NCBI GenBank assembly: GCA_009692045.1 | Contig: SIAA01000008.1 | Span: 1 to 61,257, forward strand | DNA: 61,257 nt | Source: Phycisphaerales bacterium | GTDB taxonomy: Bacteria; Planctomycetota; Phycisphaerae; Phycisphaerales; SM1A02 | Direction of reading: 5' to 3' | In this document: piece after piece, positions 11,871 through 39,158 of the stretch | Layout of the letters: every line of letters starts with the position of its first letter | Position numbering within the stretch: the first letter of the stretch is position 1 | The notes under the pieces: model-generated | Databases searched by the model: none | What the model was told of the DNA's origin: nothing | What the model saw: the letters and a program-made list of their open reading frames with translations, nothing else | Made by a program: the position numbers and the translations under genes

Positions 11871-11921
11871 GGATTTGTTAGCGAATGGGGTGTTATAGTA
11901 GCCAGATTGAAAGGGTTCTTG
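11871..11921. promoter_or_regulatory. Short divergent promoter region
   Basis: Only 51 bases separate the FG-GAP gene (minus) from the protease gene (plus), so promoters and leaders of both must overlap here. TATAGT at 11894-11899 is a possible plus-strand -10 element, but I see no well-spaced -35. GAAAGGG just before the protease start is a plausible ribosome-binding site. Confidence 0.35.
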
Positions 11922-12917: not shown

Positions 12918-12935
12918 ACTCCCCAAGGAAATCCC

Positions 12936-14750
12936 ATGAAACTATCCCATATCGCCAGCGTTGCTCTGGTTCTCTCCTTCGCTTCGCAATCAACTCGTGC
13001 TGAGGAGTCGATCTCCATAGAGCGGTTGGCTCCGGCCAACTCCTTCGCAGTCATCGCCTTCAAGGATCTCGCGGCAATCCCCGCCCGGTTCAAGGCGACT
13101 CCGCTGGGGCAGTTGCTGGAATCAGATGCCGGCAAGAAGGCACTCGAGAGTTACAACGAGGCGAGCAAGGAGGCGAAGGAGGCGCGCGCCAAAGAGTTGA
13201 GTCTTGAGCCATCCGACTTGAATGTGCTGCCGAAAGCTTGCGGCGCTGCCATGTTCTTTGAACACAGTCAAGAGCTTGATGCCGACCTTCCGGCCGTCAT
13301 TGCTGTGATGGACTTTGGCGACCAGGCTGACACCGCCCAGAAGTTCATCGACGCTCTCTGCGACGAGATTGCCCGCGACACCGGCAGTTCGATCGAGGAA
13401 GAGACAATCGGTACTCGCACTGCCAAAGTCATTCCCGTTCCCAGTGGAGAGGGCGACGGAGATGACTCGTTCAGTCCGCTTCCGGGCGGGCCGCCGCGTC
13501 AGCGTCCCCAGATGGAGCCGGATTTCGGTTCGATGATTCCTAGTTTTGATTCGGTTTGCTACACGCGTGAAGGAACAACGTTCATATTCACTTCCAGCCT
13601 GGGAGCACTTCAGGATGCCCTCGATGTAATCGATGGCAAGGCTGCCGAATCAGTGGCCGACGAGAAACAGTTTCAGGCTGCCATAGATCAGATCGGTCCG
13701 CAGGACGCCTACGCGGTGCTGCTCTTCAACAACCTTGAACCGCTCTTGGCACCGATGTTTTCAGGTCCGATGGCCATGGCCAAGGATATATTCAAGACCT
13801 TCATTGGCCATGCGGACGGCTTCTCCCTTGGTTTGAAACTGGATGGCGCCGTGGGAATGATTGAGGTGGTGTCGGGGATCTCCATGTCGAGTCCTCCAAC
13901 CGGACTGATCGCGCTGGCCAGCAAGGCTTCGCCTCTCTCCGTGCCTCCGGTACTGGGCGGAGATGACTGCAGTTCCTACTACCAGATGAACTTCAACTTT
14001 GCCGGCGTGCCCCAGTTGTTTGAAGACGCGCTGGCGGCGCTTCCAGATGGTGACGCAGCTCAGCTCGAGCCGATGCTCGCCATGTACATGCCAGCGCTCA
14101 AGAAGGCGTTCTCCTCACTGGGGCCAACCATCTGGTCTTTCAGTCAGGTGAGCGCGCAGCTGCCCGAGGGATCCCGGTCCGTGACAGCGATTCAGTGCAG
14201 CGAAGAGAAGAGCGTCGTACCGCTCATCAACATGATCGCTCCTCAGGCGGGAATGATGCCCCAGGATTTTCAGGGGCAGACGATTTACCGCGGCGATGCG
14301 GAGCAGATGAGTATGGCTCTGGGATTCGCCGGTACGGCACTGGTGTTTGGCGAGTCTGCTTCAGTCGAGCAGGCCATGCGAACGGCAGCCGAGAAATCGG
14401 CTCGGCCTCTTTCGGATAGTGAGAACTACCGGCTTGCTATTGCTGCCACCCCCTCCGGTGAACTCATCGGCTGGGGCTATCTAGACCTGCTCAGCACCGT
14501 GGAGCAGTTGAAGAATCAGTATCTAGAAGCCTCCAATGCCAATGCGGACGCCGATGGATTCCTGGATCCTTCCGGCAACCCCATCGGAGCACTCCTCCCC
14601 GCGATTCCTGATGGAATTCAATCGGCCATCACCGAACTGTCAAGCACCATCTTGCGCGACCACTTGGGTCTGATGGTCTATGAGATACGACCTGCACCAG
14701 GAGGCATGGTGTATCGCATGTCAGTTCTGGCACCCTCCGCCCGGAAGTAG
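12936..14750 (+). CDS. Secreted protein of unknown function
   Basis: A 604-residue protein with a clear signal peptide (residues 1-22, ending STRAEE) and no other obvious membrane segment. It begins IERLAPANSFAVIAFKDLAAIPARFKATPLG and contains alternating stretches about 'ALDVIDGKAAE' and 'SVEQAMRTAAEK', somewhat like DUF3352-type proteins. That resemblance is from memory and weak. A Pro-rich linker (PPRQRPQMEPD) sits near residue 190. AAGGAAA precedes the ATG. Its closeness to the protease gene suggests one transcript and possibly a substrate or partner relation, which is inference. Confidence 0.65.
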   Translation: MKLSHIASVALVLSFASQSTRAEESISIERLAPANSFAVIAFKDLAAIPARFKATPLGQLLESDAGKKALESYNEASKEAKEARAKELSLEPSDLNVLPKACGAAMFFEHSQELDADLPAVIAVMDFGDQADTAQKFIDALCDEIARDTGSSIEEETIGTRTAKVIPVPSGEGDGDDSFSPLPGGPPRQRPQMEPDFGSMIPSFDSVCYTREGTTFIFTSSLGALQDALDVIDGKAAESVADEKQFQAAIDQIGPQDAYAVLLFNNLEPLLAPMFSGPMAMAKDIFKTFIGHADGFSLGLKLDGAVGMIEVVSGISMSSPPTGLIALASKASPLSVPPVLGGDDCSSYYQMNFNFAGVPQLFEDALAALPDGDAAQLEPMLAMYMPALKKAFSSLGPTIWSFSQVSAQLPEGSRSVTAIQCSEEKSVVPLINMIAPQAGMMPQDFQGQTIYRGDAEQMSMALGFAGTALVFGESASVEQAMRTAAEKSARPLSDSENYRLAIAATPSGELIGWGYLDLLSTVEQLKNQYLEASNANADADGFLDPSGNPIGALLPAIPDGIQSAITELSSTILRDHLGLMVYEIRPAPGGMVYRMSVLAPSARK

Positions 14751-14753
14751 GTT

Positions 14754-15617
14754 CTAGCGCCGGAGCATGAGTTCGAGCGCCGCCTCTACCGAGGCGTTTG
14801 CTTGGACCCCAACTTCGCCGTGAACTGCGGATTCGCGACTGAACACTCCTCTGCCAGCATCGGCGATCGCTAGGCAGATTTTCTCACTCACGATTTGATC
14901 TTGCTCGCCGTGGACCACCAGCAGGGGGCAGGACAACCGCGCCGCCGCAAGCTCAGTAGGTGTTTCCCGGCCGCCCCAACAGTGCAGCACTAGTTGGGCG
15001 CAGTAGGCGAGAGCAGCACTGGGCAGTCGATGTTGACTCAGTCTGCCCGCGAGTGGCTGCCTGATGGTGGAGTAGGGCGAGTAAGCAACTACACCGCTGA
15101 CGGCCGATTCACTCAAAGCTGCGGCGCGAATCGCCAGAGCCGCGCCTAATGAGTGCCCAACCAGGATGAGCGGCTCTCCCGGCTTGGCTTGGCTCAGGGA
15201 TTTCACGATTGCCACAATGTCTCGCACCTCGTTGCCGCACATGCTCGCTCGCGCGACGGCCGAATCACCGTGGCCGCGCAAATCCATCAGCACAAGTTGT
15301 CGGACTCGATCTTGGTAGGGAGCGATTCGCCGGAGAGAGTCGATGCGCGATCGCGACCATCCGTGCAGCATCAACACCGTTCCCCTTGCTCCGCCGCCAT
15401 CGATGAGCCATGCCGGTGCGCGGGCTCCGCCGGGCAGCGCAAACTCATGCTCGCGCCATGAGGAGTTGAGTCCGTCGGGGTGAAATCGCCAGCCTCTTGC
15501 CAGAGCCCAGCCCGCTGTGGCGCGCCGCGGTCGGCGGGCCTCGATTACCACACAGGACACGAGGGCAAAGCATGCGCCGAGAAGTCCCAAAGACAGAAGT
15601 GGTAGCAGGCGTAGCAC
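14754..15617 (-). CDS. Alpha/beta hydrolase with N-terminal membrane anchor
   Basis: One hydrophobic segment (residues 3-25) is followed by an alpha/beta-hydrolase fold of about 230 residues. LMLHGWSRSR gives the oxyanion region and GHSLG the nucleophile elbow with Ser156. VVHGEQDQI likely gives the acid residue, and SAVHGEVG the catalytic His near the C-terminus. The start is GTG 15617. It lies 5 bases downstream of the cyclodeaminase-like gene. The substrate cannot be told; the fold is close to serine aminopeptidase/BEM46-like lipid hydrolases. Confidence 0.78.
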   Translation of the reverse strand: MLRLLPLLSLGLLGACFALVSCVVIEARRPRRATAGWALARGWRFHPDGLNSSWREHEFALPGGARAPAWLIDGGGARGTVLMLHGWSRSRIDSLRRIAPYQDRVRQLVLMDLRGHGDSAVARASMCGNEVRDIVAIVKSLSQAKPGEPLILVGHSLGAALAIRAAALSESAVSGVVAYSPYSTIRQPLAGRLSQHRLPSAALAYCAQLVLHCWGGRETPTELAAARLSCPLLVVHGEQDQIVSEKICLAIADAGRGVFSRESAVHGEVGVQANASVEAALELMLRR

Positions 15618-23061: not shown

Positions 23062-23244
23062 CTATTCCGGTCGCTTGCCTTCGATGGTGATCGAGGTCGC
23101 CTTGGGGCGAGCATCGGTCGCGGGGCAGGAAGGGCAGCGTGTGCTGCGCGGTTTGCGACTCGGCAGAAATGGTTTTATCACGATCACCAATGCCGTGACA
23201 AACACCAGACTCACCAGCCAAAACTGCCAGTCATCCAGCGGCAT
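23062..23244 (-). CDS. Small Cys-containing membrane protein linked to FeoB
   Basis: A 60-residue protein starting at ATG 23244, which shares its A with the feoB stop (TAATG). One transmembrane helix (WLVSLVFVTALVIVIKPFL) is followed by a basic stretch and a CPSC pair. Size, helix and Cys pair resemble the FeoB-associated Cys-rich membrane proteins and FeoC-like partners found at the ends of feo operons. The frame runs further upstream inside feoB, but that part is out of context. Its stop lies one base from the ispD stop on the other strand. Confidence 0.6.
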   Translation of the reverse strand: MPLDDWQFWLVSLVFVTALVIVIKPFLPSRKPRSTRCPSCPATDARPKATSITIEGKRPE

Positions 23245-25286
23245 TACGGAGCTCCCACCGCAGCCACTACCAGTTGATGGGTTACGAAGGCGGCGCAGTA
23301 GGCAATCGCGGTCATCCATCCCAGTTGAAGCAGGGCCCACTTCCACGAGCCAGTCTCACGCCGGGTGACTGCCAGAGTGGGAAGGCACTGCATCGCAAGA
23401 ACATAAAACACCAACAGACTGGCCGAGGTAGCCGTGGTGAATACCGGAGAACCATCATCGCGCTTGGCTTCTCTCATCGCGGCAACTGTGCCCTCATCCA
23501 TCTCCGCGTCATTCTCTCCGGCAGCCACCAGCACCTTCATCGAGCCCACGAATACCTCGCGGGCAAGGAAGCTGGCCAGCACTGAGACTGTCACCTGCCT
23601 GTCAAAGCCGAGCGGAGCGAATATTGGCTCGGCCGTTCGCCCCAGCATGCCCGCGAAACTTGCGGAGCGCTGGGCGCGCGCTGCCTCCGCCTCTGTCGGT
23701 GCGGGCAAGGTCTCTGCTGCATTTGCGGCGACGGGTGTCTCTGGAGACTCGCTGGCGCGGGGGAATGCTTGCAACCACCACATGAGGACGCAGATCGCCA
23801 GAATCACGCCGCCGGCGCTGCGCAGGAACATCAGCGATCTATCGCCAGCCGCAATCAAGGCGCTGCGGATGCTGGGGATTCGGTAGGGCGGCAACTCCAG
23901 CATCATCGGTCGCGATGCACCGCGCAGGATCGTCTTGCGGGCAATGAAGGCACTGGCAAATGCCGCAGTTGCGCCCAGCAGATAACACCCCACGAATGCC
24001 GCGCCCGCCATGAACGGTCGCCCTTGAAATAGCAGACTCGTAAGAAGCACATACACGGGAACGCGAGCGCTGCAGGAGAGAAACGGGGCAACAAGTATGG
24101 TGGCCAGTCGGTCGCGGCGGTCTGGAATCAAGCGCGCCGACATGATCCCGGGTAGGGCGCAAGCGTGGCTGGAGAGCAGGGGGATGAACGCCTGTCCGGG
24201 AAGCCCAACCCGGCGCATGTTGCGATCAACCGCGAAGGCAGCTCGCGCGAGGTAACCGCTGTCCTCCAGAAGCGACAACAGGAAGAACAGAAGTGCGATC
24301 TGAGGAATGAACACCACCGTGCCCGCGATTCCTCCGACTATTCCATCTCGGAGCAACTCCTGAATCAGTCCCGGAGGAATGATTCTCTCGACGAGTCCGC
24401 CTAGGGAGGTGAACAACGCGTCAATCGCATCCATGGGAAAGCCAGCGAGCCAGAAAATGGTTCCGAAAAGAGCGGTCATCACCGCAGCGAAGGTGACAAG
24501 ACCCAAAAGCGGATGGGTGAAGGCATGATCCAGACGATCCGTCATCAGGTCATGGGCATCATTAGCTGCGCTGGAACTGCCCGCGACCTCAGCCAGAACT
24601 CCCGCAGCCCAATCCGCACTCTCTCGCGAACCGGGCTCACTGCTGGGAACACCAGCGGCACTCCGCGCTGCAGCAAGACTGGTTCGCTGCAGGCTTTCTC
24701 CACCCGCAGATTGCTGTCCCAACCTGAATTCTCGCGCCGACTCGGCCAAAGCGTGAAGGAGTTGACCGATTCCCTCACCACTGCGCCCGCTGGCGGCCAC
24801 GGCGGGGCACCCCAGTCGAGCCGACAGGCGCTTCATATCAAGTGAGAGCCCACCTCGTGACGCGACATCGGTCATCGTCACCGCAGCCACACATTGTCTT
24901 CCGCGGCGAAGCACACTCGCCCCCAGCGCGAGTCCGCGCGCGAGATTTGTAGCGTCGAGAACCAGAAGGACGGCATCGGGATCGCAGCCAGTTACCCGAC
25001 CCTCCAAACAGTCGAGGCAAAGTTTCGACTCGGGAAGCTCGAGGCGCAATCCGTAGATGCCAGGGAGGTCGATCAACTCCAGCGGGGTTGCACCATCGAG
25101 GGCGCTACCCACATGCGACTCCACCGTGCTGCCCGGAAAGTTTGCCGTCTTGGATCGCAGCCCGCAGATGCGATTGAACAGAGTTGTCTTGCCCGTGTTG
25201 GGATTCCCCAGAAGAGCGACGCGCAGGGGCCGCGACTCGTCACCTTCGGCAGCCGAAGCCGCGCCCTCTGAGGCTTCAGCCACCAA
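23244..25286 (-). CDS. feoB: Ferrous iron transporter FeoB
   Basis: Fe(II) permease of the inner membrane with an N-terminal G domain. G1 is GNPNTGKT (27-34), G3 is DLPG. The G4 position reads TMTD (137-140), where FeoB normally has NxxD. The membrane half keeps both Gate motifs (CALPGIMSARLIPDRRDR and PFLSCSARVPVYVLL). A short Ala/Glu-rich linker with no helix spacer precedes the membrane domain. The start is TTG 25286 or GTG 25283, one or four bases after the feoA stop. 680 residues is within the family range. Confidence 0.93.
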   Translation of the reverse strand: MVAEASEGAASAAEGDESRPLRVALLGNPNTGKTTLFNRICGLRSKTANFPGSTVESHVGSALDGATPLELIDLPGIYGLRLELPESKLCLDCLEGRVTGCDPDAVLLVLDATNLARGLALGASVLRRGRQCVAAVTMTDVASRGGLSLDMKRLSARLGCPAVAASGRSGEGIGQLLHALAESAREFRLGQQSAGGESLQRTSLAAARSAAGVPSSEPGSRESADWAAGVLAEVAGSSSAANDAHDLMTDRLDHAFTHPLLGLVTFAAVMTALFGTIFWLAGFPMDAIDALFTSLGGLVERIIPPGLIQELLRDGIVGGIAGTVVFIPQIALLFFLLSLLEDSGYLARAAFAVDRNMRRVGLPGQAFIPLLSSHACALPGIMSARLIPDRRDRLATILVAPFLSCSARVPVYVLLTSLLFQGRPFMAGAAFVGCYLLGATAAFASAFIARKTILRGASRPMMLELPPYRIPSIRSALIAAGDRSLMFLRSAGGVILAICVLMWWLQAFPRASESPETPVAANAAETLPAPTEAEAARAQRSASFAGMLGRTAEPIFAPLGFDRQVTVSVLASFLAREVFVGSMKVLVAAGENDAEMDEGTVAAMREAKRDDGSPVFTTATSASLLVFYVLAMQCLPTLAVTRRETGSWKWALLQLGWMTAIAYCAAFVTHQLVVAAVGAP

Positions 25287-25287
25287 T

Positions 25288-25557
25288 CTATTCCCTGTCG
25301 CAGAGCGTCACGGTGATTCGTGATGCCAGTTCGCGTGAGAGCCCGATCCGTGTGGTGTCCACCTGAATGATGCAGGGCGATCCGCTGCGGCAGACGCGCA
25401 CCTTGCAGGCATCGGCCATCCCCATGGCGGCCAGAAGGCAGCGTTCGCGCTCAGGTAGTTCGGTCAGCGCCGAACAGTCCACCGTTGCCCGCTGTCCCCG
25501 CTTCAATTGGTTGAGAGGGATGCGAGCATTGGACTGAGTTGTGGCTGGCTGCACCAT
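25288..25557 (-). CDS. feoA: FeoA domain protein
   Basis: An 89-residue SH3-like FeoA protein, the cytoplasmic partner of FeoB. Family marks: IPLNQLKRGQRATV near residue 13, LAAMGMADACKVRVCRSGSPCIIQV in the middle, and RIGLSRELASRI near the end. It sits directly upstream of feoB and 9 bases after the ferredoxin-like gene. The role of FeoA in gating or assembly is known from other bacteria. Confidence 0.9.
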   Translation of the reverse strand: MVQPATTQSNARIPLNQLKRGQRATVDCSALTELPERERCLLAAMGMADACKVRVCRSGSPCIIQVDTTRIGLSRELASRITVTLCDRE

Positions 25558-26856: not shown

Positions 26857-28608
26857 ATGGAACCAGTCAGAACACTAGTGAGTGCCGCCCAGTCGCGCTT
26901 GGCGCGTCAGGCGTTTTGCTCGGAGTGGATTCGAGCACTGGTCCCGCTGGCAATCCTCATTGCGGTTCTAGCGTTGATTTCAAGAGTAGTTGGTTCGTGG
27001 TGGCCATCAATGGCGGACTCGGGCAAGGGACTGCCGATCGCCTTGGCAGCCGCGCTCGGACTTGCCGCGGTCTGGGCCTTGATCGCCGCCCGGGGCGGAC
27101 GATTGGGGGCCTTGGCCGCCGCGTCAATTCTGGATCAGCGCTTGGAGTTGCGCGACCGGCTCTCCACAGCCGTTGCCTTGCAGGCGCGTACTGATGTATT
27201 CGCCAAGGCTGCAGTGGAGGATGGCGTGCGGTGCGCCCGAGACCCCAAGGTGCGCGAGCGAATGTCTCGAGCGTTGCCCTATTGTGCCCCACGGCGCTGG
27301 TGGATTGGCCCTTCAGTACTAGGGCTGGCGGTGGTGGTGTGGGCATTTGTTCCCGTCGCATCGTTCTCCAAAGAGGCGGCCGCCGAGTCAGTGGCACTCG
27401 CTGCGGCCAAGGCGGTTTCTAACGATGTGGTGACTGAAGTCGTCAAACGGATTGAGCAGTCGCCCGAACTGTCGGGCACAGTGGCGCCCACTCCCACCTC
27501 GGGTGATGCCAAGATTGATCCTGCTGACGAAAAATCACTGACCCCCGATGACATTCGCCGCGATGCCATGCGCAAAGTCGCGCAGATGGAGCGCAAACTG
27601 GACGAGGTGCTCGTGGGCGAGCAGGCGCAGGAGCTCTCAGCACTCAAGGATGCACTCTCGCGGATGGATGCCCCCAAGGAGGGACCCGGCTCGGAACTCG
27701 CGCAATCCCTGAAGCGGGGCGACATGGTCGCCGCCAAGAAAGCGCTAGACCAACTGAAGCAGGACATCGAGACTGGCCAGTTGGACGAGAGCACAAAAAA
27801 GAAGTTGGAGGAGCAGTTGCAGGATTTGGCCAAGCAGCTCTCCGAGGCCGCCAACTCCAAGGATGCTCTGGAGCGAGCGCTAGCGGAGAGCGGGCTGGAC
27901 AAGAATCTGGCTAACAATCCTGAAGCTCTGAAGCGAGCAGCTGAGGCAGCAAAGCATTTGAATGCGGAGCAGCGTGAGGCGCTGATGCAGGCGCTGAAGG
28001 CACAGCAGGGCGCAGCGGGGAAGTGTCAGAAGTTGGGTGAAGCTTGCGGGGGAATGGGGAAGTCTGCCGGAGGATCGGGCTCCAGTGAGGACTTGAAGGC
28101 TGGTGCCAAGGGCGGCGACATGCTCTCGGAGCTGGAGTCGATGGAGCAAATGCTGCAGAGCGCCAGTGAGTGCAAGGGCAGTTGCACCAAAGCCAACAAG
28201 GCACTTGGGGATGGAATGTCGGGCAGTTGCAATGGCCCCGGCGGAACAAATCGAGGCCGAGCATCTGGAGAGCGGGCGGCCCCCGAGGCGACTGCTACCG
28301 GAACCAAACTGCGCAAGGAAAAAGTGGAACTGCAAGATGGAGAGGTCATCGCTCGGCAGTTGATCGAAGGGCCACCAGTAGTTGGCGAGAGCAAGCGCAC
28401 GCTGGAACGGGTAGCAGGCGATATCGGTACAGGCAGCGAGGAAGCAACCGACGATGATCCTGTGCCTCCGCGACTTCAGGAGGCTCATCAGCACTACTTT
28501 GGGGAGTTGAAAAAGCGTCTCGAGGCGCGCATGAGGGAAGCAGCTCCAGCCAAAGACGCAGATTCGGCTGCACCCAAACCCCCCAGTCCTGCTGGCGGTG
28601 GAGCGTGA
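26857..28608 (+). CDS. Membrane coiled-coil protein (DUF4175-like)
   Basis: Two N-terminal membrane helices (about 27-47 and 58-78) and a third (about 151-172) are followed by roughly 400 soluble residues. Long charged helices rich in Glu, Lys and Ala (about 225-380) point to a coiled coil, then comes a Gly/Cys-rich stretch with several Cys (GKCQKLGEACGGMG, ECKGSCTKANK). Similar proteins accompany MoxR/DUF58/VWA operons; the DUF4175 likeness is from memory. It starts the long operon, with GGAGAA before the ATG. Its stop overlaps the solute-binding protein start. Confidence 0.65.
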   Translation: MEPVRTLVSAAQSRLARQAFCSEWIRALVPLAILIAVLALISRVVGSWWPSMADSGKGLPIALAAALGLAAVWALIAARGGRLGALAAASILDQRLELRDRLSTAVALQARTDVFAKAAVEDGVRCARDPKVRERMSRALPYCAPRRWWIGPSVLGLAVVVWAFVPVASFSKEAAAESVALAAAKAVSNDVVTEVVKRIEQSPELSGTVAPTPTSGDAKIDPADEKSLTPDDIRRDAMRKVAQMERKLDEVLVGEQAQELSALKDALSRMDAPKEGPGSELAQSLKRGDMVAAKKALDQLKQDIETGQLDESTKKKLEEQLQDLAKQLSEAANSKDALERALAESGLDKNLANNPEALKRAAEAAKHLNAEQREALMQALKAQQGAAGKCQKLGEACGGMGKSAGGSGSSEDLKAGAKGGDMLSELESMEQMLQSASECKGSCTKANKALGDGMSGSCNGPGGTNRGRASGERAAPEATATGTKLRKEKVELQDGEVIARQLIEGPPVVGESKRTLERVAGDIGTGSEEATDDDPVPPRLQEAHQHYFGELKKRLEARMREAAPAKDADSAAPKPPSPAGGGA

Positions 28609-29621
28609 TGCCGCGGCTGGGGGTAGTACTTTCCACACTCCTCGCGCTATGTGCTTGTGAAGATCGATCACCCAGTATTGCGGTAGCAGTCGCGGTAGAT
28701 CAACGAGTCGCCAGTCAGGTACTGGATAACTTCGAACGCCAGTCCGGGGTACGGGTAGACGCTCTGTATGACACGGAGGGCGCCAAGACCAGCGGATTGC
28801 TGGCAACCGTGCGCGCGAGGAACGAGGGCGCACCACTTGGTGTCTGGTGGTCCGGGGAGTGCTACGCGACAGCACTGCTTGCTGACGATGGGCTCCTAGC
28901 CCCCATGCCGTCGGATCTGAGAGCCGAGTTGGATCCTCGGAATGTGGGGAGTACCCACCCGTGGCTGTCCTCAGTCGCGCGTCACCGTGTTGTGGCATGG
29001 AGGCCCGAGACCGATGATCCGCCTGCTGACTGGCTCGATCTCACCGATCCGCGCTTCAAGGGCCGGATTGCTATGGCCGATCCGAGATTCGGCACAACTC
29101 GCGGGCACTTCGGTGCCATCAAGACCTGGTTGGATTCGTCGCAGGGCAAGGAGGCTTTCGCCGAGTGGGCGCGCAAGTTGGCTGCGAATCAACCACTGAT
29201 TGTCACCAACGGCAACGCCGGAGCACTGGAGGCCGTGCTTCGAGGCGAGGCGGATTTCTGTGCGACTGACAGCGATGATGTCGCGTGCGCCGAGGTTCGA
29301 GGCGAGTTGCTCATGTCAACGCCGCTTCGACACGGAGCCCAACCCGGCGAAGGCCCGCTCCTGATTCCCAGCACCATCGCCGTGATCGCCAGCGGCGACT
29401 GCCCCGAAGCATGGGACTTGGTGCGGCATCTTGCCAGCGCTCATTCCCAATCTGTGATCGGCAGCGAGTGCGGCGATCGCATACCGCCAGGACAGTCGGG
29501 CGACTCGCTGGATGTGTCACCGACAGACGCAGCAAGAGCGATGAACGAGGCCGTGGCGGAGTTCATGCGCGCCGTGGCGGCACAGCGGGCGGCAGCGTCC
29601 TCGGCCGGAGCGGGGATGTGA
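28605..29621 (+). CDS. ABC transporter solute-binding lipoprotein, Fe(III)/FbpA type
   Basis: A short signal peptide ends in the lipobox LCAC (Cys at about 18-19). The mature protein follows the FbpA/FutA pattern: IAVAVAVDQRVASQVLDNFERQSGVRVDALYDTEG, GVWWSGECYATALLADDGLLAP, and WLDLTDPRFKGRIAMADPRFG. Family members bind ferric iron in the periplasm, but I cannot identify the metal ligands with certainty. The start is GTG 28605 or the adjacent ATG 28608. It overlaps the permease gene by GTGA. Confidence 0.83.
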   Translation: MMPRLGVVLSTLLALCACEDRSPSIAVAVAVDQRVASQVLDNFERQSGVRVDALYDTEGAKTSGLLATVRARNEGAPLGVWWSGECYATALLADDGLLAPMPSDLRAELDPRNVGSTHPWLSSVARHRVVAWRPETDDPPADWLDLTDPRFKGRIAMADPRFGTTRGHFGAIKTWLDSSQGKEAFAEWARKLAANQPLIVTNGNAGALEAVLRGEADFCATDSDDVACAEVRGELLMSTPLRHGAQPGEGPLLIPSTIAVIASGDCPEAWDLVRHLASAHSQSVIGSECGDRIPPGQSGDSLDVSPTDAARAMNEAVAEFMRAVAAQRAAASSAGAGM

Positions 29622-32206
29622 GACAGAATCGTGGCGGTGCCGGATGGCCATTCGCCGCCGCGGGATTGCTGCTCTTCGCCCTGGCTGTGGTTTGTCCTCT
29701 GACCATGGCGCTGCTGCGCTCGGCTGCTGAAACAAATGTCGAGACCGGCTCCGCCGTCTGGCAAACTGTCGAACCCATCAACTTGCTGATGGCACGCACA
29801 CTTTGGTGGGCCGCCTCATGTGCCACCGCGGCCGCGCTCATCGGCTGGTTGACGGGCCGAGCGATGCGGCAATCGTGCATTTTCACTCGAGTCGCATCTC
29901 TGGTAGTTCCACTCTTGCCGCCCTATGCAGTGTTCTACGCACTGTGGCGACTGTTTCCGCCGGGCTGTTGGCTAGAGCGAGTCGCAGCCGAGTGGGGCAA
30001 TGCGGGTCTGCTTAGGCAGTCGTTACTCGGCGCGACTCTGATCCTCTGGGGCTGGGCCGTTGTGGCATGGATCGTCTGCTGTCTCGGTGGCAGTGGCGCC
30101 CGTTCCCAGCGCGAGTTGCTTGCGGTCGATGGAGCGCGGTGGTCGGCGCGTTTCGCTTCGGCTTGGCGGGAGGACAGATGGGCGCTGCTCATGGGATGGA
30201 TCGCACTCACTCTCTTCTTCGTTGGCGATACCACTGCCTTTGATGTTGCCCAGGTGCGCACCATCGGATTCGAACTGCGCACACTTGATTCACTAGGTAT
30301 GGCGGCTGGGCAACTGACCCAACTTGGCGCTCCCGCGATCTTCTTGGTGGTGCTGGGTGTGGGTGCGATCGTGCTTCTCGCCCGCCGGGGAGAAGCGCGC
30401 GGCTCTGGGGTCGTCTCAACCTGCGCGGTTGAACCATCAGGCTTCCTCCGCGGCGCCTCTACCAATCGAGGCGCCAGTCGCATGGTGCGCATCGCCAACT
30501 TGCTCGTTTGGATTCTTGCGGGGATCGTGGTGGGAGCTCTGTTCCTCCTCGCAAGTTCCCTCAGTGGAGCCTCGATCAGATCGGAGTTTGTGCTGTTCGA
30601 TCTGCGTGCCGCGGCCAACTCTCTGCAGTTGGCATGTATGGCAGGAGTCTTGGGAGCAGTGATTGCAGTGGCACACTTCGCGCTCGCCGCCGGTAATCGA
30701 CTTTGGCGAACTACAGGGTTCACCCTCTTCGCACTCTGGCTGGCGGTGGGGTGTGTGCCGGGGACCCTGATTGCGCTGGTGCAACTTCATGCTTGGCACT
30801 CGAGCGGAATGAGTTGGGTGGTCGATCAGGCCTCGATAGGAACCCTGCTGGGAGAGCTATGCAGGTTTGCTTTTGCAGCTGCTCTCATCGGGACTGTGGC
30901 GGGTACCTACTTCAGGCGAGATCGCGAACTGCAGGATCAGATCGCCCTCGAGCCACTTACCTTCCGGGGCTACTGCCGCCTAGCGCGGGGCACACTTCTC
31001 ATACTGGCGGCGGTTGCCTTTGCAGTTACGGCCACTCTTGCCGCCGGTGAGGTCGTTATCGCCGGCAGATTGCAGGCGCCCGGAGCAGAGCTTCTTGCCT
31101 CCAGCCTTTTGAATGCCATCCACTATCAGGATGCCGCTGGTGTACTGCTGGCGCTGCCCATGCTCGCTGGCATGGCAGTGCTGTCTGCTCTCGTGCTGGC
31201 GTTGCTCCTTCGCCGCGCAGTAATCATCTGCGCCGTCGCCGGGGCGCTGTGCCTGAGTGCATCAGCCTGTGATGAACAGGTTGATCAGGGTGGCACCAGC
31301 TCGGCGATCGTTGCGGTTTCAGAGTCGATCACTCCCGAGCGGCTCGTTCCCACCATCTGTTTCGGCGCCGCGGGGCGAGTCCCTGGACGATTTGAGTATC
31401 CGCGAGCGATTGACATCAGCCCGCTCACGGGTGAGATGGTCGTGATCGACAAGGCGGCGCAGGTGCAGGTATTCGATGCTGCGGGCAAACTCTCCAGATT
31501 CTGGCGCATGCCCGAGTGGGAAATGGGGAAGCCCACCGGCGTCACCGTGGATGCCGAGGGGTTCATCTGGGTGGCAGACACGCATTACCACCGGGTGATT
31601 CGTTTTCGACCAAGTGGCGAGGAGAGCCTGCGAATCGGCGAGTATGGCCAGGGCCCCGGGCAGTTCATCTATCCCACCGACATCGCCATTCTTCCCCAAG
31701 GGGAGGTCATGATTTCGGAGTACGGCGGTAACGATCGCGTTCAGGTGTTTACCAAGGATGGTCAGTTCATCCGTGAGTTTGGCTCTCATGGTTCCGGTTC
31801 TGCGGAGTTCATTCGCCCGCAGGCACTGGCACTTTCTCTCGACAGCTCAGAGGTGTTCATCGCCGATGCCTGCAATCACCGCATCCAAGTATTCGGGGTC
31901 GATGGCGCATGGCGGCGAACGATCTCCCACATCGGTCGAGAGCCGGGCGCGCTTGCCTATCCCTACTCGCTGTTGGTTCTGGACGACGGTTCGTTGCTCG
32001 TAAGCGAGTTCGGCAACAATCGCATTCAACGCCTTGATGCGCGCACCGGCGAGTCTCGGGGAATGTGGGGCGGAGCAGGGCATGAGGAGGGGAGGCTGCT
32101 CATTCCCTGGGCCGTGGCTCGTCTGGGGACCCGCTACGCCGTCCTCGACTCGGGGAACTCACGCGTCGTCGTCATCGACTTTCCCCCTTGGGACTTACGG
32201 CGCTAG
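29618..32206 (+). CDS. ABC transporter permease fused to an NHL-repeat propeller
   Basis: From GTG 29618 (GTGA overlap with the binding-protein gene) the frame encodes 862 residues without a stop. Residues 1-530 form a two-halved FbpB-like permease with about twelve hydrophobic segments and a recognisable EAA-type loop in the first half (ELLAVDGARW). At about 531-551 follows a segment that looks exactly like a lipoprotein signal (RRAVIICAVAGALCLSASAC). Residues 552-862 form an NHL six-bladed propeller (GFIWVADTHYHRVIRF, EVMISEYGGNDRVQVF, EVFIADACNHRIQVF). No ABC ATPase gene is adjacent. It is either a real fusion or two genes that lost a stop. Confidence 0.75.
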   Translation: MRQNRGGAGWPFAAAGLLLFALAVVCPLTMALLRSAAETNVETGSAVWQTVEPINLLMARTLWWAASCATAAALIGWLTGRAMRQSCIFTRVASLVVPLLPPYAVFYALWRLFPPGCWLERVAAEWGNAGLLRQSLLGATLILWGWAVVAWIVCCLGGSGARSQRELLAVDGARWSARFASAWREDRWALLMGWIALTLFFVGDTTAFDVAQVRTIGFELRTLDSLGMAAGQLTQLGAPAIFLVVLGVGAIVLLARRGEARGSGVVSTCAVEPSGFLRGASTNRGASRMVRIANLLVWILAGIVVGALFLLASSLSGASIRSEFVLFDLRAAANSLQLACMAGVLGAVIAVAHFALAAGNRLWRTTGFTLFALWLAVGCVPGTLIALVQLHAWHSSGMSWVVDQASIGTLLGELCRFAFAAALIGTVAGTYFRRDRELQDQIALEPLTFRGYCRLARGTLLILAAVAFAVTATLAAGEVVIAGRLQAPGAELLASSLLNAIHYQDAAGVLLALPMLAGMAVLSALVLALLLRRAVIICAVAGALCLSASACDEQVDQGGTSSAIVAVSESITPERLVPTICFGAAGRVPGRFEYPRAIDISPLTGEMVVIDKAAQVQVFDAAGKLSRFWRMPEWEMGKPTGVTVDAEGFIWVADTHYHRVIRFRPSGEESLRIGEYGQGPGQFIYPTDIAILPQGEVMISEYGGNDRVQVFTKDGQFIREFGSHGSGSAEFIRPQALALSLDSSEVFIADACNHRIQVFGVDGAWRRTISHIGREPGALAYPYSLLVLDDGSLLVSEFGNNRIQRLDARTGESRGMWGGAGHEEGRLLIPWAVARLGTRYAVLDSGNSRVVVIDFPPWDLRR

Positions 32207-32227
32207 TCGCAGAGTAATCTTCCTTCA

Positions 32228-35188
32228 ATGCTGCTGGCGAGTTCGATAGTGCTGGAGAGACCGGAGGCGCTGTTCATTCTCGTGCTGCTGCCTCTCTTCT
32301 GGTTTGTTGGCTATCGCCGCTGGCAGGTCACCGGTCCGGTCAAGGCTTGGAGTAGTGCGATTGCTCGAACCCTGCTGGTTCTACTGCTCGTTGCGAGCAT
32401 CGCTCAACCCCGAATCGTTGATACCAGCGGCGGGCTGACCCTGATGGTCGTCGCCGATGTCAGTCGCAGCATCCCTCAGGCGCAGCGGATCGAAGCCGAT
32501 GAATTTCTGCAGAAGGTGGCGAAGTCGCGCCTGCTGGAGGAGGATCGCCTCGGGCTGGTAGCGGTGGCGCGGCACGCCGACACGCTGGCGATGCCGGCGC
32601 AGGATGCCGTCCTATCGACCGCGGTCGCTGCCGGTGACTTCGATGGCACCGACATCTCTGCCGGAATCAAACGAGCGTTGGCGTTGCTCCCACCCGATAC
32701 GGCTAGTCGGATCCTTCTGGTGTCGGATGGCAATGAAACGATGGGCAATGCCATGGAGGCAGCGGATCTCGCCCGCGCTAATGGCATTCCCATCGATGTG
32801 CTGCCCCTGCAATACACCCACGAGCGCGAGGTGGTGTTCGAAGGGCTCCGCGCACCTGCGCGCGCGCGTGTGGGGCAGTCAGTTGATCTGAAACTATTTC
32901 TTAGAAGTCAGGGAGCGGCTAGCGGGGTGATTCTTCTTTGGCGCAACGACAAGCCCGTGGATCTTGATCCCGATGGAGCGGGAGTGGGCCTGAGGGTCGA
33001 ACTTCCCCCGGGTGCCAGCACACTCACTATTCCGGTGAGCGTTGAAGCAGCCGGTGCCCATCGATTCCGCGCCATCTTCGAGCCGACCGATGGGGACTCG
33101 ATGCTGGAGAACAATGTCGCGGCGGGAACGATATTCGCCTCTGGAGAGGGACGCATTCTGGTGATCGATGACACCGGAGACGAGTCAAGCTCATTCGTCC
33201 AGGCGTTGCAGCAGGGCCACATTGCAGTTGATGTGGTTACCAGCGAGCAGCTCTCGGCCGGAGCCGACTTCCTGGCCTCTTATGACGCCATCGTGCTGGC
33301 AAACATCCCGCGTTTCGCCATCGACAATGAAACCGATCGAATCCTGCACTCTTTCGTGCACGATTTGGGTGGCGGCCTGCTCATGCTCGGCGGAGATCAT
33401 TCTTTCGGTGCCGGTGGTTGGATCGACTCTCAGACCGCCAAGGCCCTTCCGGTGAAACTTGATCCGCCGCAGACTCGCGAGTTGCCACGGGGATCGCTGA
33501 TCCTGGTGGTGCATTCCTGCGAAATGGCCCAGGGAAACTACTGGGGGCAGGAGGTTGCCGTTAGCGCCATTGATGCTCTGAGCCGTCTTGACTATGTGGG
33601 AATCATCACCTTCGGGTTTGGCCGGGGGGATGGAAACTTTGGTGCCAGTTGGGCGTTCCCTCTGCAACTCGCCGGTGACAAGTCCGCGGCGAAGTCGGCT
33701 GCCAAGGGCATGCAGGTGGGTGATATGCCCGACTTTCAACCGACTCTGGAGCTGTCGCTCAAGGGTCTGGACTCAGTTCGCGCCGGACAGAAGCATGTCA
33801 TCATCATCAGCGATGGCGATCCCGCGCCGCCCTCGCAAAAACTGCTCGATGAGTTCAAGTCGCGCAAGGTGACGGTGACCACTGTGATGGTCGCCGGTCA
33901 CGGCACGGCGGAAGACAACAACAACATGCGCGCCGTCGCCGAGCAAACCGGGGGCAACTTTTATAATGTGGTGAACCCCAAGCACCTGCCCAAGATATTT
34001 GTGAAGGAGGCGACCTTGGTGTCGCGCTCCCTGATTATCGAGGGAGAGTTTGTCCCGCGCTTCACCAGCGGATTGCCTGGGCCGGTCGATGGGTTTTCTG
34101 GCGTGCCACCTGTTTCGGGCTATGTTCTTACCGTTCCGCGCGAGGGATTGGCGCAGATTCCCATTTCTATTCCCAACGCCGATGGGGTCGATCCACTGTT
34201 CGCCTACTGGAACTATGGACTGGGAAAGTCGGCTGCCTTCACCAGCGACCTCTCCGGGCGGTGGGGCGGTGCCTGGGTCAAGTGGGCTTCGTTTCAGTCA
34301 TTTTGGGAGCGGGTGATCCGATGGCTGGCTCGACCCGCGACTCCGCGCGATGTGATCATGTCCACCCGCCTAGATGGTGATCGCGGCATTGTTGAACTTG
34401 AGGCAGTGAGCGGCGAGGGAGGGTTTTCTAACTTCCTCAGGACCAATGCTGTCGTACTCGGCCCCGACGGTTACCCTGTCCCACTTCAACTCGAGCAGAT
34501 TGGTCCCGGTCGGTATCGGGGAGAGTTTGCCGCTTCCGAAGCCGGGGCATATCTGGTCAATGTGGGGTTCACCGGCACCGACGGCGCGGCTGCCGGCAGC
34601 GTTCAGTCGTCGTTGAATGTTGCCTACCAACGGGAGTTCCGCGCAACTCGCGACAACGCTGCGCTCATGCACGCCATCGCTGAGAGAACGGGGGGAAGAG
34701 TTCTTAGGGTCGCGGATGCGGGAACCTACGATGCCTTCGATCGCCGCGGACTGGTCATGCCTGAGAGTGCTCGGCGCATCTGGGATCTGCTGGCAATCAT
34801 CGCCGCGGCGCTCCTCGTGATAGATGTGGCAATCCGGCGGCTCGCCTTTGACACTGCTGCCGCGCGCGAGATGGCTGAGCGAGCGCTAGGGGCGAGCGCT
34901 CCGGGAACGGCCGGTGGAATCGAAGCCTGGAAACGAGCGCGCAGTGCTGCCCCTAGTGGTGATGAGAGCCGCGCCAAGAGCCAGGGGGCAAGGAGCTCTG
35001 CTGCGGCCGTCGAGTCATCCATCAAACCCGTCTCTGGTCGCATCGTTGCAGAGCCGCCCTCGGTGGTCAAGAGCGAGAGTGAGGGAGAGCCCACTTCGGC
35101 TATCGATCGATTGCGCGCCGCCAAGGAGCGAGCGCGGCGAGAGGCAGAGGAACGGGGCAATCCTGATGCCGATGGTGGCGGGAACTGA
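32228..35188 (+). CDS. Membrane protein with two VWA domains and a glutamine-amidotransferase-like domain
   Basis: Two N-terminal helices (about 10-27 and 43-60) are followed by a VWA domain with a MIDAS-type DVSRS motif (about 78-250) and a beta-sandwich. Next is a class I glutamine-amidotransferase-like domain (LGGGLLMLGGDHSFGAGGW) without visible catalytic Cys. A second VWA domain follows (VDILVVHS-type start, IIISDGDPAPP). A C-terminal helix near residue 865 precedes a charged cytoplasmic tail. Such proteins sit with MoxR ATPases in many planctomycetes. The stop TGA directly touches the moxR start. Confidence 0.8.
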   Translation: MLLASSIVLERPEALFILVLLPLFWFVGYRRWQVTGPVKAWSSAIARTLLVLLLVASIAQPRIVDTSGGLTLMVVADVSRSIPQAQRIEADEFLQKVAKSRLLEEDRLGLVAVARHADTLAMPAQDAVLSTAVAAGDFDGTDISAGIKRALALLPPDTASRILLVSDGNETMGNAMEAADLARANGIPIDVLPLQYTHEREVVFEGLRAPARARVGQSVDLKLFLRSQGAASGVILLWRNDKPVDLDPDGAGVGLRVELPPGASTLTIPVSVEAAGAHRFRAIFEPTDGDSMLENNVAAGTIFASGEGRILVIDDTGDESSSFVQALQQGHIAVDVVTSEQLSAGADFLASYDAIVLANIPRFAIDNETDRILHSFVHDLGGGLLMLGGDHSFGAGGWIDSQTAKALPVKLDPPQTRELPRGSLILVVHSCEMAQGNYWGQEVAVSAIDALSRLDYVGIITFGFGRGDGNFGASWAFPLQLAGDKSAAKSAAKGMQVGDMPDFQPTLELSLKGLDSVRAGQKHVIIISDGDPAPPSQKLLDEFKSRKVTVTTVMVAGHGTAEDNNNMRAVAEQTGGNFYNVVNPKHLPKIFVKEATLVSRSLIIEGEFVPRFTSGLPGPVDGFSGVPPVSGYVLTVPREGLAQIPISIPNADGVDPLFAYWNYGLGKSAAFTSDLSGRWGGAWVKWASFQSFWERVIRWLARPATPRDVIMSTRLDGDRGIVELEAVSGEGGFSNFLRTNAVVLGPDGYPVPLQLEQIGPGRYRGEFAASEAGAYLVNVGFTGTDGAAAGSVQSSLNVAYQREFRATRDNAALMHAIAERTGGRVLRVADAGTYDAFDRRGLVMPESARRIWDLLAIIAAALLVIDVAIRRLAFDTAAAREMAERALGASAPGTAGGIEAWKRARSAAPSGDESRAKSQGARSSAAAVESSIKPVSGRIVAEPPSVVKSESEGEPTSAIDRLRAAKERARREAEERGNPDADGGGN

Positions 35189-36217
35189 ATGGGGCCTGCT
35201 GAACTCATCCTTGATTCTGTCGAGTCCGTGCGCGCAGCGTGCCAGGAGTTTCGCGGGAGTTTCGCGGCGCTGCGGAGCGAGGTGGCGAAGTCAATGGTCG
35301 GACAGAAAGAGGTCGTTGAACTCACCTTGATTGCCCTCGTTGCCGATGGGCATGTACTGCTCGAGGGGGTGCCGGGTCTGGGCAAGACTCTGCTAGTGCG
35401 AAGCATCGCCCAATCACTGGGGCTCTCTTTCTCACGCATTCAGTTCACGCCTGATCTGATGCCTGCAGATATCACGGGGACAACAGTGATCGCCGAGAAC
35501 GAAGGCCACGGCGGGCGGCGCATGGTTTTCCGGCGGGGGCCGGTCTTTGCCCAGATACTTCTGGCCGACGAGATAAATAGAGCGACTCCCAAGAGTCAGA
35601 GTGCGCTGCTCGAGGCGATGCAGGAGCGCACCGTGACGGTCGGGGGCGAAACTATGGCGCTCGATCGACCGTTCCTGGTGCTGGCAACGCAGAATCCCAT
35701 CGAGCAGGAGGGAACCTATGCGCTGCCGGAGGCGCAGCTGGATCGCTTTTTGCTGAAGGTTGCGGTGGGAGATGTGGATCGCGGCGAGTTGACCGAGATT
35801 CTCAATCGCACCACAGGGCCGCGAGAACAGACCCCGCAGTGCGTGCTCTCCACTGACCAGATTGCCAAGGCGCAACAGCTAGCGCGGCGCATCATCATTG
35901 CGCCCCATGTGCAGGACTACGCCGTCCGCCTCGTTCTAGCGACCCATCCTCAGGGCGAGTTCGCGCCCGAGGGCGTGAGCAGGCTGATCAGCGCCGGCTC
36001 GAGCCCACGCGGTGCGCAGGCCCTCGTCGCCGCAGCCAAAGTTCGCGCTCTTCTCGATGGCCGACACGCGGTCAGCACTGTGGACGTTGCCTCACTCGTC
36101 CCCGCGGCACTCCGGCACCGCGTTGTTCGAAGTTTCGAGGCGGAAGCCGAGGGAATCACGGTCGACGCTCTGCTCTCGCGCATCCTGGAGATGACCCCCA
36201 AGGAATCACAACTGTGA
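35189..36217 (+). CDS. MoxR-family AAA+ ATPase
   Basis: A 342-residue AAA+ ATPase with Walker A GVPGLGKT (60-67), Walker B LLADEINRA, the MoxR-typical FTPDLMPADITGT, and sensor region VLATQNPIEQEGTYALPEAQLDRF. MoxR proteins act as chaperones that load metal or fold partners with VWA domains. The neighbouring DUF58 and VWA proteins are the usual partners. It starts right after the previous stop and overlaps the DUF58 gene by GTGA. Confidence 0.93.
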   Translation: MGPAELILDSVESVRAACQEFRGSFAALRSEVAKSMVGQKEVVELTLIALVADGHVLLEGVPGLGKTLLVRSIAQSLGLSFSRIQFTPDLMPADITGTTVIAENEGHGGRRMVFRRGPVFAQILLADEINRATPKSQSALLEAMQERTVTVGGETMALDRPFLVLATQNPIEQEGTYALPEAQLDRFLLKVAVGDVDRGELTEILNRTTGPREQTPQCVLSTDQIAKAQQLARRIIIAPHVQDYAVRLVLATHPQGEFAPEGVSRLISAGSSPRGAQALVAAAKVRALLDGRHAVSTVDVASLVPAALRHRVVRSFEAEAEGITVDALLSRILEMTPKESQL

Positions 36218-37173
36218 CCAGGGCGATCACTGATGTCGCTGGGGTAGAGGCCAATGCCAGTAGACCGCGCGTTCGCTTGGAGCGAGTTGACGACCTCATA
36301 GATGGGGCGCTCATGGCCCGCTTGGACACACTCGATGTTGTCAGTCGCAAGATCTTCGCTGGGAAAGTCCGGGGCGAGAGAAAGAGTCGCCGCCGCGGTC
36401 AGAGCGTGGAGTTCGCCGACTATCGCCCCTATGTCGCAGGTGATGATCTGCGTTTCGTCGATTGGAATATCTTTGGTCGGCTTGATCGGCTCTTCCTCAA
36501 ACTGTTTCTTGAAGAGGAGGATCTCACTCTGGCGATCGCCATCGACACCAGCGCCTCTATGGACCTGGGAACTCCCAACAAGTTCGATTTCGCGCGGCGG
36601 CTAGCGATGGCACTGGGGTACATCGGACTGGTGAATCACAATCGAGTGGCGCTCTATGCCTTCGGCGGCGAGGGCCTGCGACCACTCACCGGGATGCGGG
36701 GCCGCCGCCGCACGAGCGAAATGGGCAGGTGGCTGCTGCAACAAACATGCGAAGGCGACGCCCAGTTCGAGTCGGCGATGCGCACGATCGCTTTGGGGCG
36801 CCACGGCAAGGGCGTCTTGGTTGTGCTCTCCGACTTCCTTTTCCCGACGGGGTTCGAGAAGGGGCTTAGGTCGCTGGTCGGTCGCGGATACGACCTGCAC
36901 GCCATGCAGCTTCTGAGTTCTGATGAAATCGATCCGGCGCGCTATGGACTCTCCGGTGATCTGCGACTTGTCGATAGCGAGTCACGGGCAGAGACGGAAG
37001 TTACGGCGGGAACGAGTGCTATCGAGAAGTATCGGGAACGGCTGGCGCAGCACTGCGCCGAGCTACGCGATTTCAGCATCCGTCGCGGCATTACTCACTC
37101 GGTGGTTGACACAGCGGCCGACATGGACGCTCTGGTGATCGAGTACCTGAGACGGCGAGGCATGTTGCGATGA
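36214..37173 (+). CDS. DUF58 domain protein
   Basis: The 319-residue protein shows the DUF58 core GERKSRRRGQSVEFADYRPYVAGDDLRFVDWNIF (about 52-86) and then a VWA-like part with IDTSASMDLG. No membrane segment is seen. DUF58 proteins are typical companions of MoxR ATPases. GTG start at 36214 overlaps the MoxR stop; the stop overlaps the next start by ATGA. Confidence 0.9.
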   Translation: MTRAITDVAGVEANASRPRVRLERVDDLIDGALMARLDTLDVVSRKIFAGKVRGERKSRRRGQSVEFADYRPYVAGDDLRFVDWNIFGRLDRLFLKLFLEEEDLTLAIAIDTSASMDLGTPNKFDFARRLAMALGYIGLVNHNRVALYAFGGEGLRPLTGMRGRRRTSEMGRWLLQQTCEGDAQFESAMRTIALGRHGKGVLVVLSDFLFPTGFEKGLRSLVGRGYDLHAMQLLSSDEIDPARYGLSGDLRLVDSESRAETEVTAGTSAIEKYRERLAQHCAELRDFSIRRGITHSVVDTAADMDALVIEYLRRRGMLR

Positions 37174-39158
37174 CTTGGCTGACCCCGTGGACAGGCTTGA
37201 TAGTCGCGGCCAGCGTAGTGCCGCCGCTTCTCGCTCTCTATTTTCTTCGACTCCGCCGCGCGCGCCGCATTGTTTCCAGCACCATGATGTGGCGCCGTGC
37301 GGTACAGGACTTGCGCGCCAATGCCCCGTTTCAGCGATTGCGTTATTCATTGCTGCTTCTGCTGCAGTTGTTGGCAGTGGCATTGATCGTGTTGGCGATC
37401 ATGCAGCCACAGGCGGACATCGGCGAGACGCGGGGGGGGCGAACAGTCATCCTCATCGATAACTCGGCCTCGATGAACACGCTTGATGTTGAGGGCAAGT
37501 CCCGACTTGACGCTGCCAAGGCGAGAGCGCTGGAGCGGCTGGACGGATTGTTTTCCGGCGGTTGGCTCTCGGGTCCGACGGCGCAGGTGATGGTCGCATC
37601 ATTCGCTTCAGGTGCGCAGGTGATCGCGCCCTACACCGACTCGCATGCGCAGGCCCGAGAAGCGGTCGAGTCTATTGAACCCACGGATGAGGCGAGCAAC
37701 ATTGGGGAGGCGTTCGAACTGGCGCGGGCGTTTTCTCAGGCGGGCGATGCTTCGAGCGGCCGCCGCCAGGATCAGAAGTTGCAGCCGACGCCGCCAATCT
37801 TCGAGGTGTACAGCGATGGCCGAATCGCCGATTCTTCCTCGCAGGTGTTGCAGCCGGGCGAGCGATTGATCTTCCACAGCATCGGCGCGACAGCAACTCC
37901 AAATCTGGGCATCGTTGTCATCGGTGCCGAGCGGGATCCCAAGAATCCCGAGCAGATTCAGGTGTTTGCGCGAATAGCAAACTTTGCGCCGCAGGCCACG
38001 GCCGTCGATGTGCAACTTTCGCTTGACGGCGCCGTTCGAGCCGTATCGCCTCAGCCGGTTCCTTTGGAGGCAGCCCATGAGGATCCGCAAACCAAGAACT
38101 GGATTCCTGGTGAAGCGCAGGTGGTGTTTCCGGCGATCGCGCTTCCCGCGGGTGGAATCGCCTCAGTTTCTCTCGCAACACGGGACATGTTCACTACTGA
38201 CGATGAGGCGCGCCTAGTTGCGCCGGCATCGAAGGCGATGCGAATCCTTCTGGTCTCTGACGGTGGCTTCCTCTTGAAGTCATTGTTGGAGGGGATGCCG
38301 ATTGCATCGCTTGAAGTGGTGAACGCCTCGGAGTTCGAGAAACTTGCCGAGGAGTCAGGCGCTCTAGATCAGTTCGATGTGACCGTGCTCGACTCGGTGG
38401 TGCTGCGGGCACTGCCCCCGGGGCGGTATCTCAGTCTCGGTCCACCTCCGCCGCTCGAGGGTCTCAATCCCTATGGCGAAACAGTGGGAGCGCGCCTGCG
38501 AGGATCAAATGATGAGCACCCTCTCCTGCGCTTTGCTCGCATGGATGATGTGGCCGTGGGGAAACTGCACTCACTGGCTCCCAGCGGCCAGTTCGAAGTG
38601 GTGGCCGAGTCAGGTAGCGGCCCCTTGGTGGTGGCACTGTCCAAGGGTTCGACCCGCGCCGTGATAGTCCCCTTCGATCCTCTTGACAGCAACTGGCCCT
38701 TTCTCCGCGGGTTCGTGAACTTCATGGCCAACGCCATCGATTGGTTGGGTGCCAGTGGAGCCGCTTCGTCGGGAGAGGCAGCGCGACCAGGAGCGGTGCT
38801 CTCCACAAGATTGCCCAGCGAAGCCAGCGGCCTGGTGATGAGGCTGCCCAATGGAAAGGAGTCCGGGCTCTCTGTCGCCGATCCATCATTGATTACCTAT
38901 GGGCCGGTGCGGCACTCGGGCGTGTACCGACTTTCATGGCGCGAGGGACAGCGCCGTGACGATCGCGCGTTTGCCGTCAATGTTGACACCCGTAGCGAGG
39001 GGAGAGTCGCCGCGCTCACCGACTTGGTGATGCAGCAGACCACGGTGCGCGGGGTCGGGGCAGCGGCTGCCCTGCGTACGAATCTGTGGCCGTGGGCGCT
39101 GGCGGCAGCGCTGCTGGTGCTGCTTGCGGAGTGGGTGGTGTACTACCGTCGAATCTGA
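37170..39158 (+). CDS. BatA-like membrane protein with VWA domain
   Basis: Two N-terminal helices (about 8-26 and 57-77, LLLLLQLLAVALIVLAIM) frame the 'LRLRRARRI' BatA motif. A VWA domain follows with MIDAS DNSAS (about 91-95). Then come beta-rich domains and a final helix near the C-terminus (LWPWALAAALLVLLAEWVVYYRR). This is the Bat/aerotolerance-type layout. It is the last gene of the seven-gene operon. The 23 bases before the minus-strand gene contain no clear terminator. Confidence 0.85.
   Translation: MTWLTPWTGLIVAASVVPPLLALYFLRLRRARRIVSSTMMWRRAVQDLRANAPFQRLRYSLLLLLQLLAVALIVLAIMQPQADIGETRGGRTVILIDNSASMNTLDVEGKSRLDAAKARALERLDGLFSGGWLSGPTAQVMVASFASGAQVIAPYTDSHAQAREAVESIEPTDEASNIGEAFELARAFSQAGDASSGRRQDQKLQPTPPIFEVYSDGRIADSSSQVLQPGERLIFHSIGATATPNLGIVVIGAERDPKNPEQIQVFARIANFAPQATAVDVQLSLDGAVRAVSPQPVPLEAAHEDPQTKNWIPGEAQVVFPAIALPAGGIASVSLATRDMFTTDDEARLVAPASKAMRILLVSDGGFLLKSLLEGMPIASLEVVNASEFEKLAEESGALDQFDVTVLDSVVLRALPPGRYLSLGPPPPLEGLNPYGETVGARLRGSNDEHPLLRFARMDDVAVGKLHSLAPSGQFEVVAESGSGPLVVALSKGSTRAVIVPFDPLDSNWPFLRGFVNFMANAIDWLGASGAASSGEAARPGAVLSTRLPSEASGLVMRLPNGKESGLSVADPSLITYGPVRHSGVYRLSWREGQRRDDRAFAVNVDTRSEGRVAALTDLVMQQTTVRGVGAAAALRTNLWPWALAAALLVLLAEWVVYYRRI

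Follow-up and report, generated by a model that had tools for sequence, protein, structure and literature searches.

Within the window (the whole stretch of DNA analysed here, 61,257 nucleotides in length), a single open reading frame joins an ABC-type permease to an NHL β-propeller through a short segment resembling a bacterial lipoprotein signal. The frame contains 862 codons without a stop and is open upstream as far as 29285. Because its GTG codon at 29618 overlaps the TGA of the binding-protein gene, this position is taken as the natural start. The binding-protein gene in turn begins within the end of the preceding 583-residue gene, and the VWA/GATase gene begins 21 bases after the fusion frame, placing the fusion inside a tightly packed gene run. 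The block extending from the 583-residue protein through the binding protein, the permease-NHL fusion and the VWA/GATase, MoxR and DUF58 proteins to the BatA-like protein (26857-39158) is kept in most genomes examined (loci L041-L056). Close upstream, on the other strand, lie FeoB and a small FeoA-like gene (23244-25557, -); FeoB is also found near the block in L043 and L051.

Table. Positions of the fusion, its parts and the neighbouring genes in the window
Feature	Position	Strand	Remarks
Conserved upstream protein, 583 aa	26857..28608	+	no Pfam or NCBIfam match
FbpA-like solute-binding lipoprotein (signal ...LCAC)	28605..29621	+	overlaps permease start; Tyr-Tyr absent
Permease-NHL fusion ORF, 862 aa	29618..32206	+	GTG start; homologs elsewhere
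FbpB-type ABC permease part, 12 TM region, residues 1-530	29618..31207	+	9j4r by profile and fold; model
Candidate internal lipoprotein-type signal: RR loop, hydrophobic helix 535-549, ASAC with Cys551 (codon 31268-31270)	31208..31270	+	
Flexible unconserved linker, residues ~552-570, pLDDT <50	31271..31327	+	alignment and model
Six-bladed NHL β-propeller, residues 573-862	31334..32203	+	PF01436 8e-23; 6xg7 Z 40.5
VWA/GATase1-like membrane protein	32228..35188	+	conserved downstream neighbour
MoxR AAA+ ATPase	35189..36217	+	conserved neighbour
DUF58 protein	36214..37173	+	conserved neighbour
BatA-like VWA protein	37170..39158	+	conserved neighbour

The N-terminal half of the fusion (residues ~10-530) matches the permease FbpB of the Thermus thermophilus ferric importer FbpBC (9j4r, model residues 21-533). 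A profile built from 26 homologs aligns collinearly with 9j4r (E 3.4e-8), and the AlphaFold model superimposes on the same structure with a VIA-align Z score of 28.8 over 474 residues (rmsd 3.9), retaining the two-times-six transmembrane (TM) fold of FbpB. The relationship surfaced only through the profile: Pfam searches with the fusion protein reported the NHL half and not BPD_transp_1, and phmmer matches of the permease alone were chance hits to a viral polyprotein, with nothing meaningful among them. Opposite each of the two EAARTLG loops of 9j4r, the alignment places an LDGA segment, in which the canonical EAA letters are replaced. A conserved LDGA/R178 segment occupies the position of an EAA loop, and the model places short helices (162-170 and 436-444) near the coupling positions. 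The likeness to FbpBC consists of a full-length collinear profile match, a fold match and an FbpA-like partner; unlike FbpBC, the present system has no adjacent FbpC ATPase and no Tyr-Tyr pair in its binding protein, and its chain additionally contains an internal signal and an NHL propeller.

The C-terminal half is an NHL domain by its Pfam match, and the model displays 24 strands arranged as six blades of four, with residues 573-853 matching NHL propellers in the fold comparison. The sole curated NCBIfam match of this half is the ScyF family (NF035926, E 5e-32); membership was rejected, the score being 111 bits against a cut-off of 350. Thin/TRIM71 (6xg7) and the sensor domain of PknD (1rwl) share the six-bladed fold, but both occur without a permease and without a lipoprotein signal, and their functions are not transferable to this protein.

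The preliminary description of this DNA had proposed an in-frame fusion of an FbpB-like permease and a six-bladed NHL domain over 862 codons, and each of these elements is borne out by the matches above and by the recurrence of the fusion. The uninterrupted frame recurs in the genus's other genome (42% identity) and more widely across Phycisphaerales, with homologous fusions down to ~30% identity in dozens of independently assembled genomes, among them single-contig assemblies such as G009 and G032. In-frame stops returned by the first genome search mark the C-terminal end, and none lies at the joint. The whole-chain AlphaFold model (pTM 0.84) runs from TM12 through a break and the signal helix to a disordered linker and the propeller. 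A technical error in assembly or sequencing, or a chance merger through the recent loss of a stop, might be suspected given that the source genome is a draft of 74 contigs and that one family of the order (f2) has separate genes. However, the fusion is intact in dozens of independent assemblies and its joint is conserved, leaving this explanation with a negligible probability. Since the same fusion and conserved joint recur across the order, an indel or lost stop confined to the source contig, which the preliminary description had offered as its alternative, is excluded. Relatives do not all have a stop codon between the two parts, and the fusion is genuine rather than an assembly error.

The joint itself consists of TM12 (helix 506-529), a basic RR turn (531-532), a second hydrophobic helix (535-549) and the sequence LSASAC, which ends at Cys551 and had been described at the outset as lipobox-like, a view that wider sampling strengthens. 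In an unsupervised alignment of 26 homologs, Cys551 is invariant in all 26 and is the sole fully invariant residue between H502 and G586. Position 550 holds one residue in 88% of these sequences and R532 is conserved in more than 90%, while the rest of the region from ~510 to 582 is poorly conserved. A count in 65 non-redundant fused homologs, which chose the cysteine by a scoring rule, found the preceding residue to be glycine in 53, alanine in 6 and serine in 6, with a lysine or arginine ahead of the hydrophobic stretch in 65 of 65. The count was repeated with independent loci added, giving a non-redundant set of 100 fused homologs; every one places [GAS]C at the joint, following a hydrophobic stretch and a basic loop. 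The cysteine occupies the aligned column in 97 of the 100, and the other three (SGC, PAC and IAC) fall within a short alignment slip. As a control, only 58 of 184 cysteines elsewhere in the permease part are preceded by glycine, alanine or serine. A strict PROSITE-style lipobox pattern matches 43 of the 65 fused homologs, where 0.17 matches per stretch of that size are expected, and 12 of 15 stand-alone NHL genes. Failures of the strict pattern mostly involve proline at -2, which occurs in stand-alone forms as well; the box of the source sequence (ASAC) has alanine rather than leucine at -3. All elements of a bacterial lipoprotein signal, namely a basic region, a hydrophobic stretch, a lipobox and an invariant cysteine, are thus present at the joint.

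A permease-only profile detects the permease in 263 of 400 Phycisphaerales genomes. Open frames of ~800-1000 codons, the length of fused genes, dominate families f1, f3 and f4, while frames of ~530-640 codons, the length of separate genes, dominate family f2. In whole-genome searches, the uninterrupted fusion turns up in most genomes of the source's own family and also in further families of the order. Named matches come from metagenome-assembled genomes of Phycisphaerales and other Planctomycetota. Outside the order, the FbpB-like matches in a phylum-wide sample are all weak, and their frames have the unfused length in nearly every case, two (G676 and G545) being longer.

In family f2, the NHL domain is usually encoded by its own gene just downstream of the permease. 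The split state also occurs in two genomes that branch from inside the fused clade of family f1. In one (G003, L042), the stop codon of the permease gene and the start codon of the NHL gene overlap in the sequence ATGA, so that the separate, overlapping genes for which the preliminary description had suggested looking do exist in this relative. In the second (G023, L041), ~4 kb separate the permease from the NHL gene, which keeps the signal ending ...VVIAGC. Each of the 15 stand-alone NHL genes examined opens with a lipoprotein-type signal whose last two residues are [GAS]C. Since fused and split genomes both bear such signals, the same kind of signal is internal (residues 531-551) in one and N-terminal in the other. 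The maximum-likelihood tree of the permease implies at least four changes between the fused and split states, two of them separations inside a fused clade, and the fused genomes of family f2 (L053, L102 and L104) form one subclade.

Several individual loci depart from the common arrangements. At L105 (G085:C46), the VWA/GATase gene comes immediately after the permease, an adjacent NHL gene being absent, and the related L007 is fused; a deletion of the NHL gene is possible, and because this genome lacks an NHL domain beside its permease, the pair is not inseparable. A frame of 1687 codons at L071 (G284:C51) apparently runs from the permease through a truncated NHL domain into the VWA/GATase protein. 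As the near-identical L067 and L068 are normal in length, this long frame is attributed to a deletion or an assembly error. Between the permease and NHL genes of G023 lies, on the opposite strand, a gene for an 814-residue repeat protein with dockerin-like repeats at its end (L041, 6260-8704). At L045, two long proteins without a known family are encoded between the fusion and the VWA gene (11336-15004), and both end in dockerin-like repeats (DLTGDGVVNGADL..., DIDGDGSIDGADL...).

These features suggest that the fusion frame encodes a precursor of two proteins, a permease and an NHL lipoprotein, which are probably separated by cleavage at the internal lipobox. The N-terminal half would be an ABC importer permease of the FbpB fold. 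In type I importers, the loops bearing the EAA motif face the cytoplasm. Loops 157-174 and 436-448, which bear the first and second EAA-like segments, are therefore expected to be cytoplasmic, so that TM helix 449-477 would lead out and the last TM helix (506-529) would lead back in and end in the cytoplasm. With helix 506-529 leading in, the RR loop would be cytoplasmic, helix 535-549 would run outward and the propeller would lie outside the membrane, a location predicted from the modelled helices and from topology rules. The RR loop, the hydrophobic helix and ASA-Cys551 may be the signal peptide of an NHL lipoprotein that was formerly encoded on its own, retained after the fusion; this signal would cross outward during insertion of the chain. 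We infer that Lgt would then lipidate Cys551 and that the lipoprotein signal peptidase, LspA, would most likely cleave the chain immediately ahead of this residue. Genes for LspA occur in 21 of 21 genomes and genes for Lgt in 18 of 21, the source genome having both. The predicted products are a 12-TM permease carrying a spent signal helix and an NHL lipoprotein, produced 1:1 and in the same place.

A permanent tether would involve the same topology. Helix 535-549 would then serve as a thirteenth TM helix and, whether or not Cys551 is lipidated, the NHL domain would stay attached outside. A comparable arrangement is known from OpuABC of Lactococcus lactis, in which a short linker plus a hydrophobic anchor joins the external substrate-binding domain covalently to the TM domain; the anchor and linker of OpuA are, however, reported not to be conserved (PMC11065425). 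A tether needs neither an invariant cysteine nor a small residue before it, yet both are kept in 100 of 100 fused homologs along a linker that otherwise drifts, and processing is favoured over a plain tether for this reason. Attachment also appears unnecessary for function, given that split genomes have an independent NHL gene with a lipoprotein-type signal. We therefore regard lasting attachment as unlikely, though with an appreciable residual probability, and of the original proposal that the propeller is tethered directly to the transporter, the fusion stands while the permanence of the link is doubtful. An internal translation start near codons 510-530 would give a separate NHL lipoprotein by another route, with or without a full-length product. 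The source sequence does offer in-frame ATG codons (31160 and 31172), as well as GTG and TTG, upstream of the signal, most homologs have at least one such codon, and the ATGA overlap of the split pair in G003 fits such a start. Against this, in six fused homologs (L022, L029, L050, L076, L102 and L116) the 27 codons that precede the signal core contain no in-frame ATG, GTG or TTG, and the positions of candidate starts vary among the remaining homologs. In these six, the ribosome would have to read straight through the joint, barring the use of a rarer start codon, so internal initiation at ATG, GTG or TTG is not the general rule, and we consider it quite improbable as the source of the NHL protein.

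Cleavage of an exported protein from a membrane protein has a precedent in FbcH, the cytochrome b/c1 precursor of Bradyrhizobium, whose internal signal peptide is cut after insertion. As proposed here for the permease-NHL precursor, FbcH combines a polytopic membrane protein with a second, exported one in a single chain, and the signal of the latter is kept inside. FbcH differs in having a signal of the signal peptidase I type and in yielding respiratory subunits, whereas the fusion described here has a lipobox of the kind recognized by Lgt and LspA and pairs an ABC permease with an NHL lipoprotein. We know of no FbcH-like precedent that involves either a lipoprotein signal or an ABC permease, and a literature search for internal lipoprotein signals and for NHL-permease fusions returned nothing directly relevant in the collection searched. 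OpuA resembles the present protein in that an external domain is joined to an ABC permease via an extra hydrophobic anchor. In OpuA, however, that domain binds substrate and stays attached, whereas here it is a propeller, the binding protein has its own gene and the lipobox cysteine is invariant. The strictly conserved lipobox, the pairing of an ABC permease with an NHL domain and the repeated switching between fused and separate genes thus set this system apart from both FbcH and OpuA.

The partners of the permease offer some indication of function. The binding protein is FbpA-like (7w3w, E 4e-21), but the NNYYL segment of FbpA aligns with TDSDDV in the source protein, and the adjacent tyrosine pair that binds Fe3+ is absent; relatives have TD[ST]DDVW at the iron-ligand position (L041, L042 and L045). 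This sequence difference suggests a ligand other than ferric iron. No ABC ATPase gene is present in the window or in 15 of the 16 neighbourhoods examined. Elsewhere in the source genome (L126, 8773-9945; G000:C24), an orphan PotA/FbpC-like ABC ATPase is encoded between mnmE-like and GDSL-type genes, with no transporter neighbours. Close relatives of this ATPase (~46-63% identity) occur in most of the order. It was rejected as a dedicated partner, being found in genomes without the permease and having no close match in several genomes with it.

The most economical reading is an importer powered by an ATPase encoded elsewhere, with the NHL lipoprotein probably serving as an external accessory subunit of the transporter. 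Some bacteria are known to share one ATPase between importers. Another view of function, compatible with the precursor reading, is that the permease no longer transports and that the binding protein, permease and NHL domain form a membrane sensing or assembly complex for the VWA, MoxR, DUF58 and BatA proteins. The missing ATPase genes, the failure of the orphan ATPase to co-occur with the permease, the TDSDD segment in place of the tyrosine ligands and the conserved gene block would all be consistent with such a complex. Retention of the full FbpB fold, of the short helices near the coupling positions and of the LDGA/R178 segment argues for transport, as does the existence of shared ATPases, and we judge a non-transporting complex to be rather unlikely.

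It is moderately likely, on balance, that the fusion represents a bacterial polyprotein in which a polytopic ABC permease and a lipoprotein share a single chain until lipoprotein signal peptidase splits it at an internal lipobox, an arrangement that is conserved across much of the order and has alternated several times with the split state. Should cleavage take place, LspA would be able to cut at an internal signal after twelve membrane helices and the definition of a lipoprotein would widen accordingly; N-terminal predictors are not expected to report such signals. Fusion followed by cleavage would also be a natural way to fix the 1:1 stoichiometry of a transporter and its outside partner. 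The repeated transitions between the two gene arrangements, with the lipobox kept in both, amount to a natural experiment that makes processing directly testable. The fusion flags a widespread, uncharacterised importer-like operon of the Phycisphaerales.
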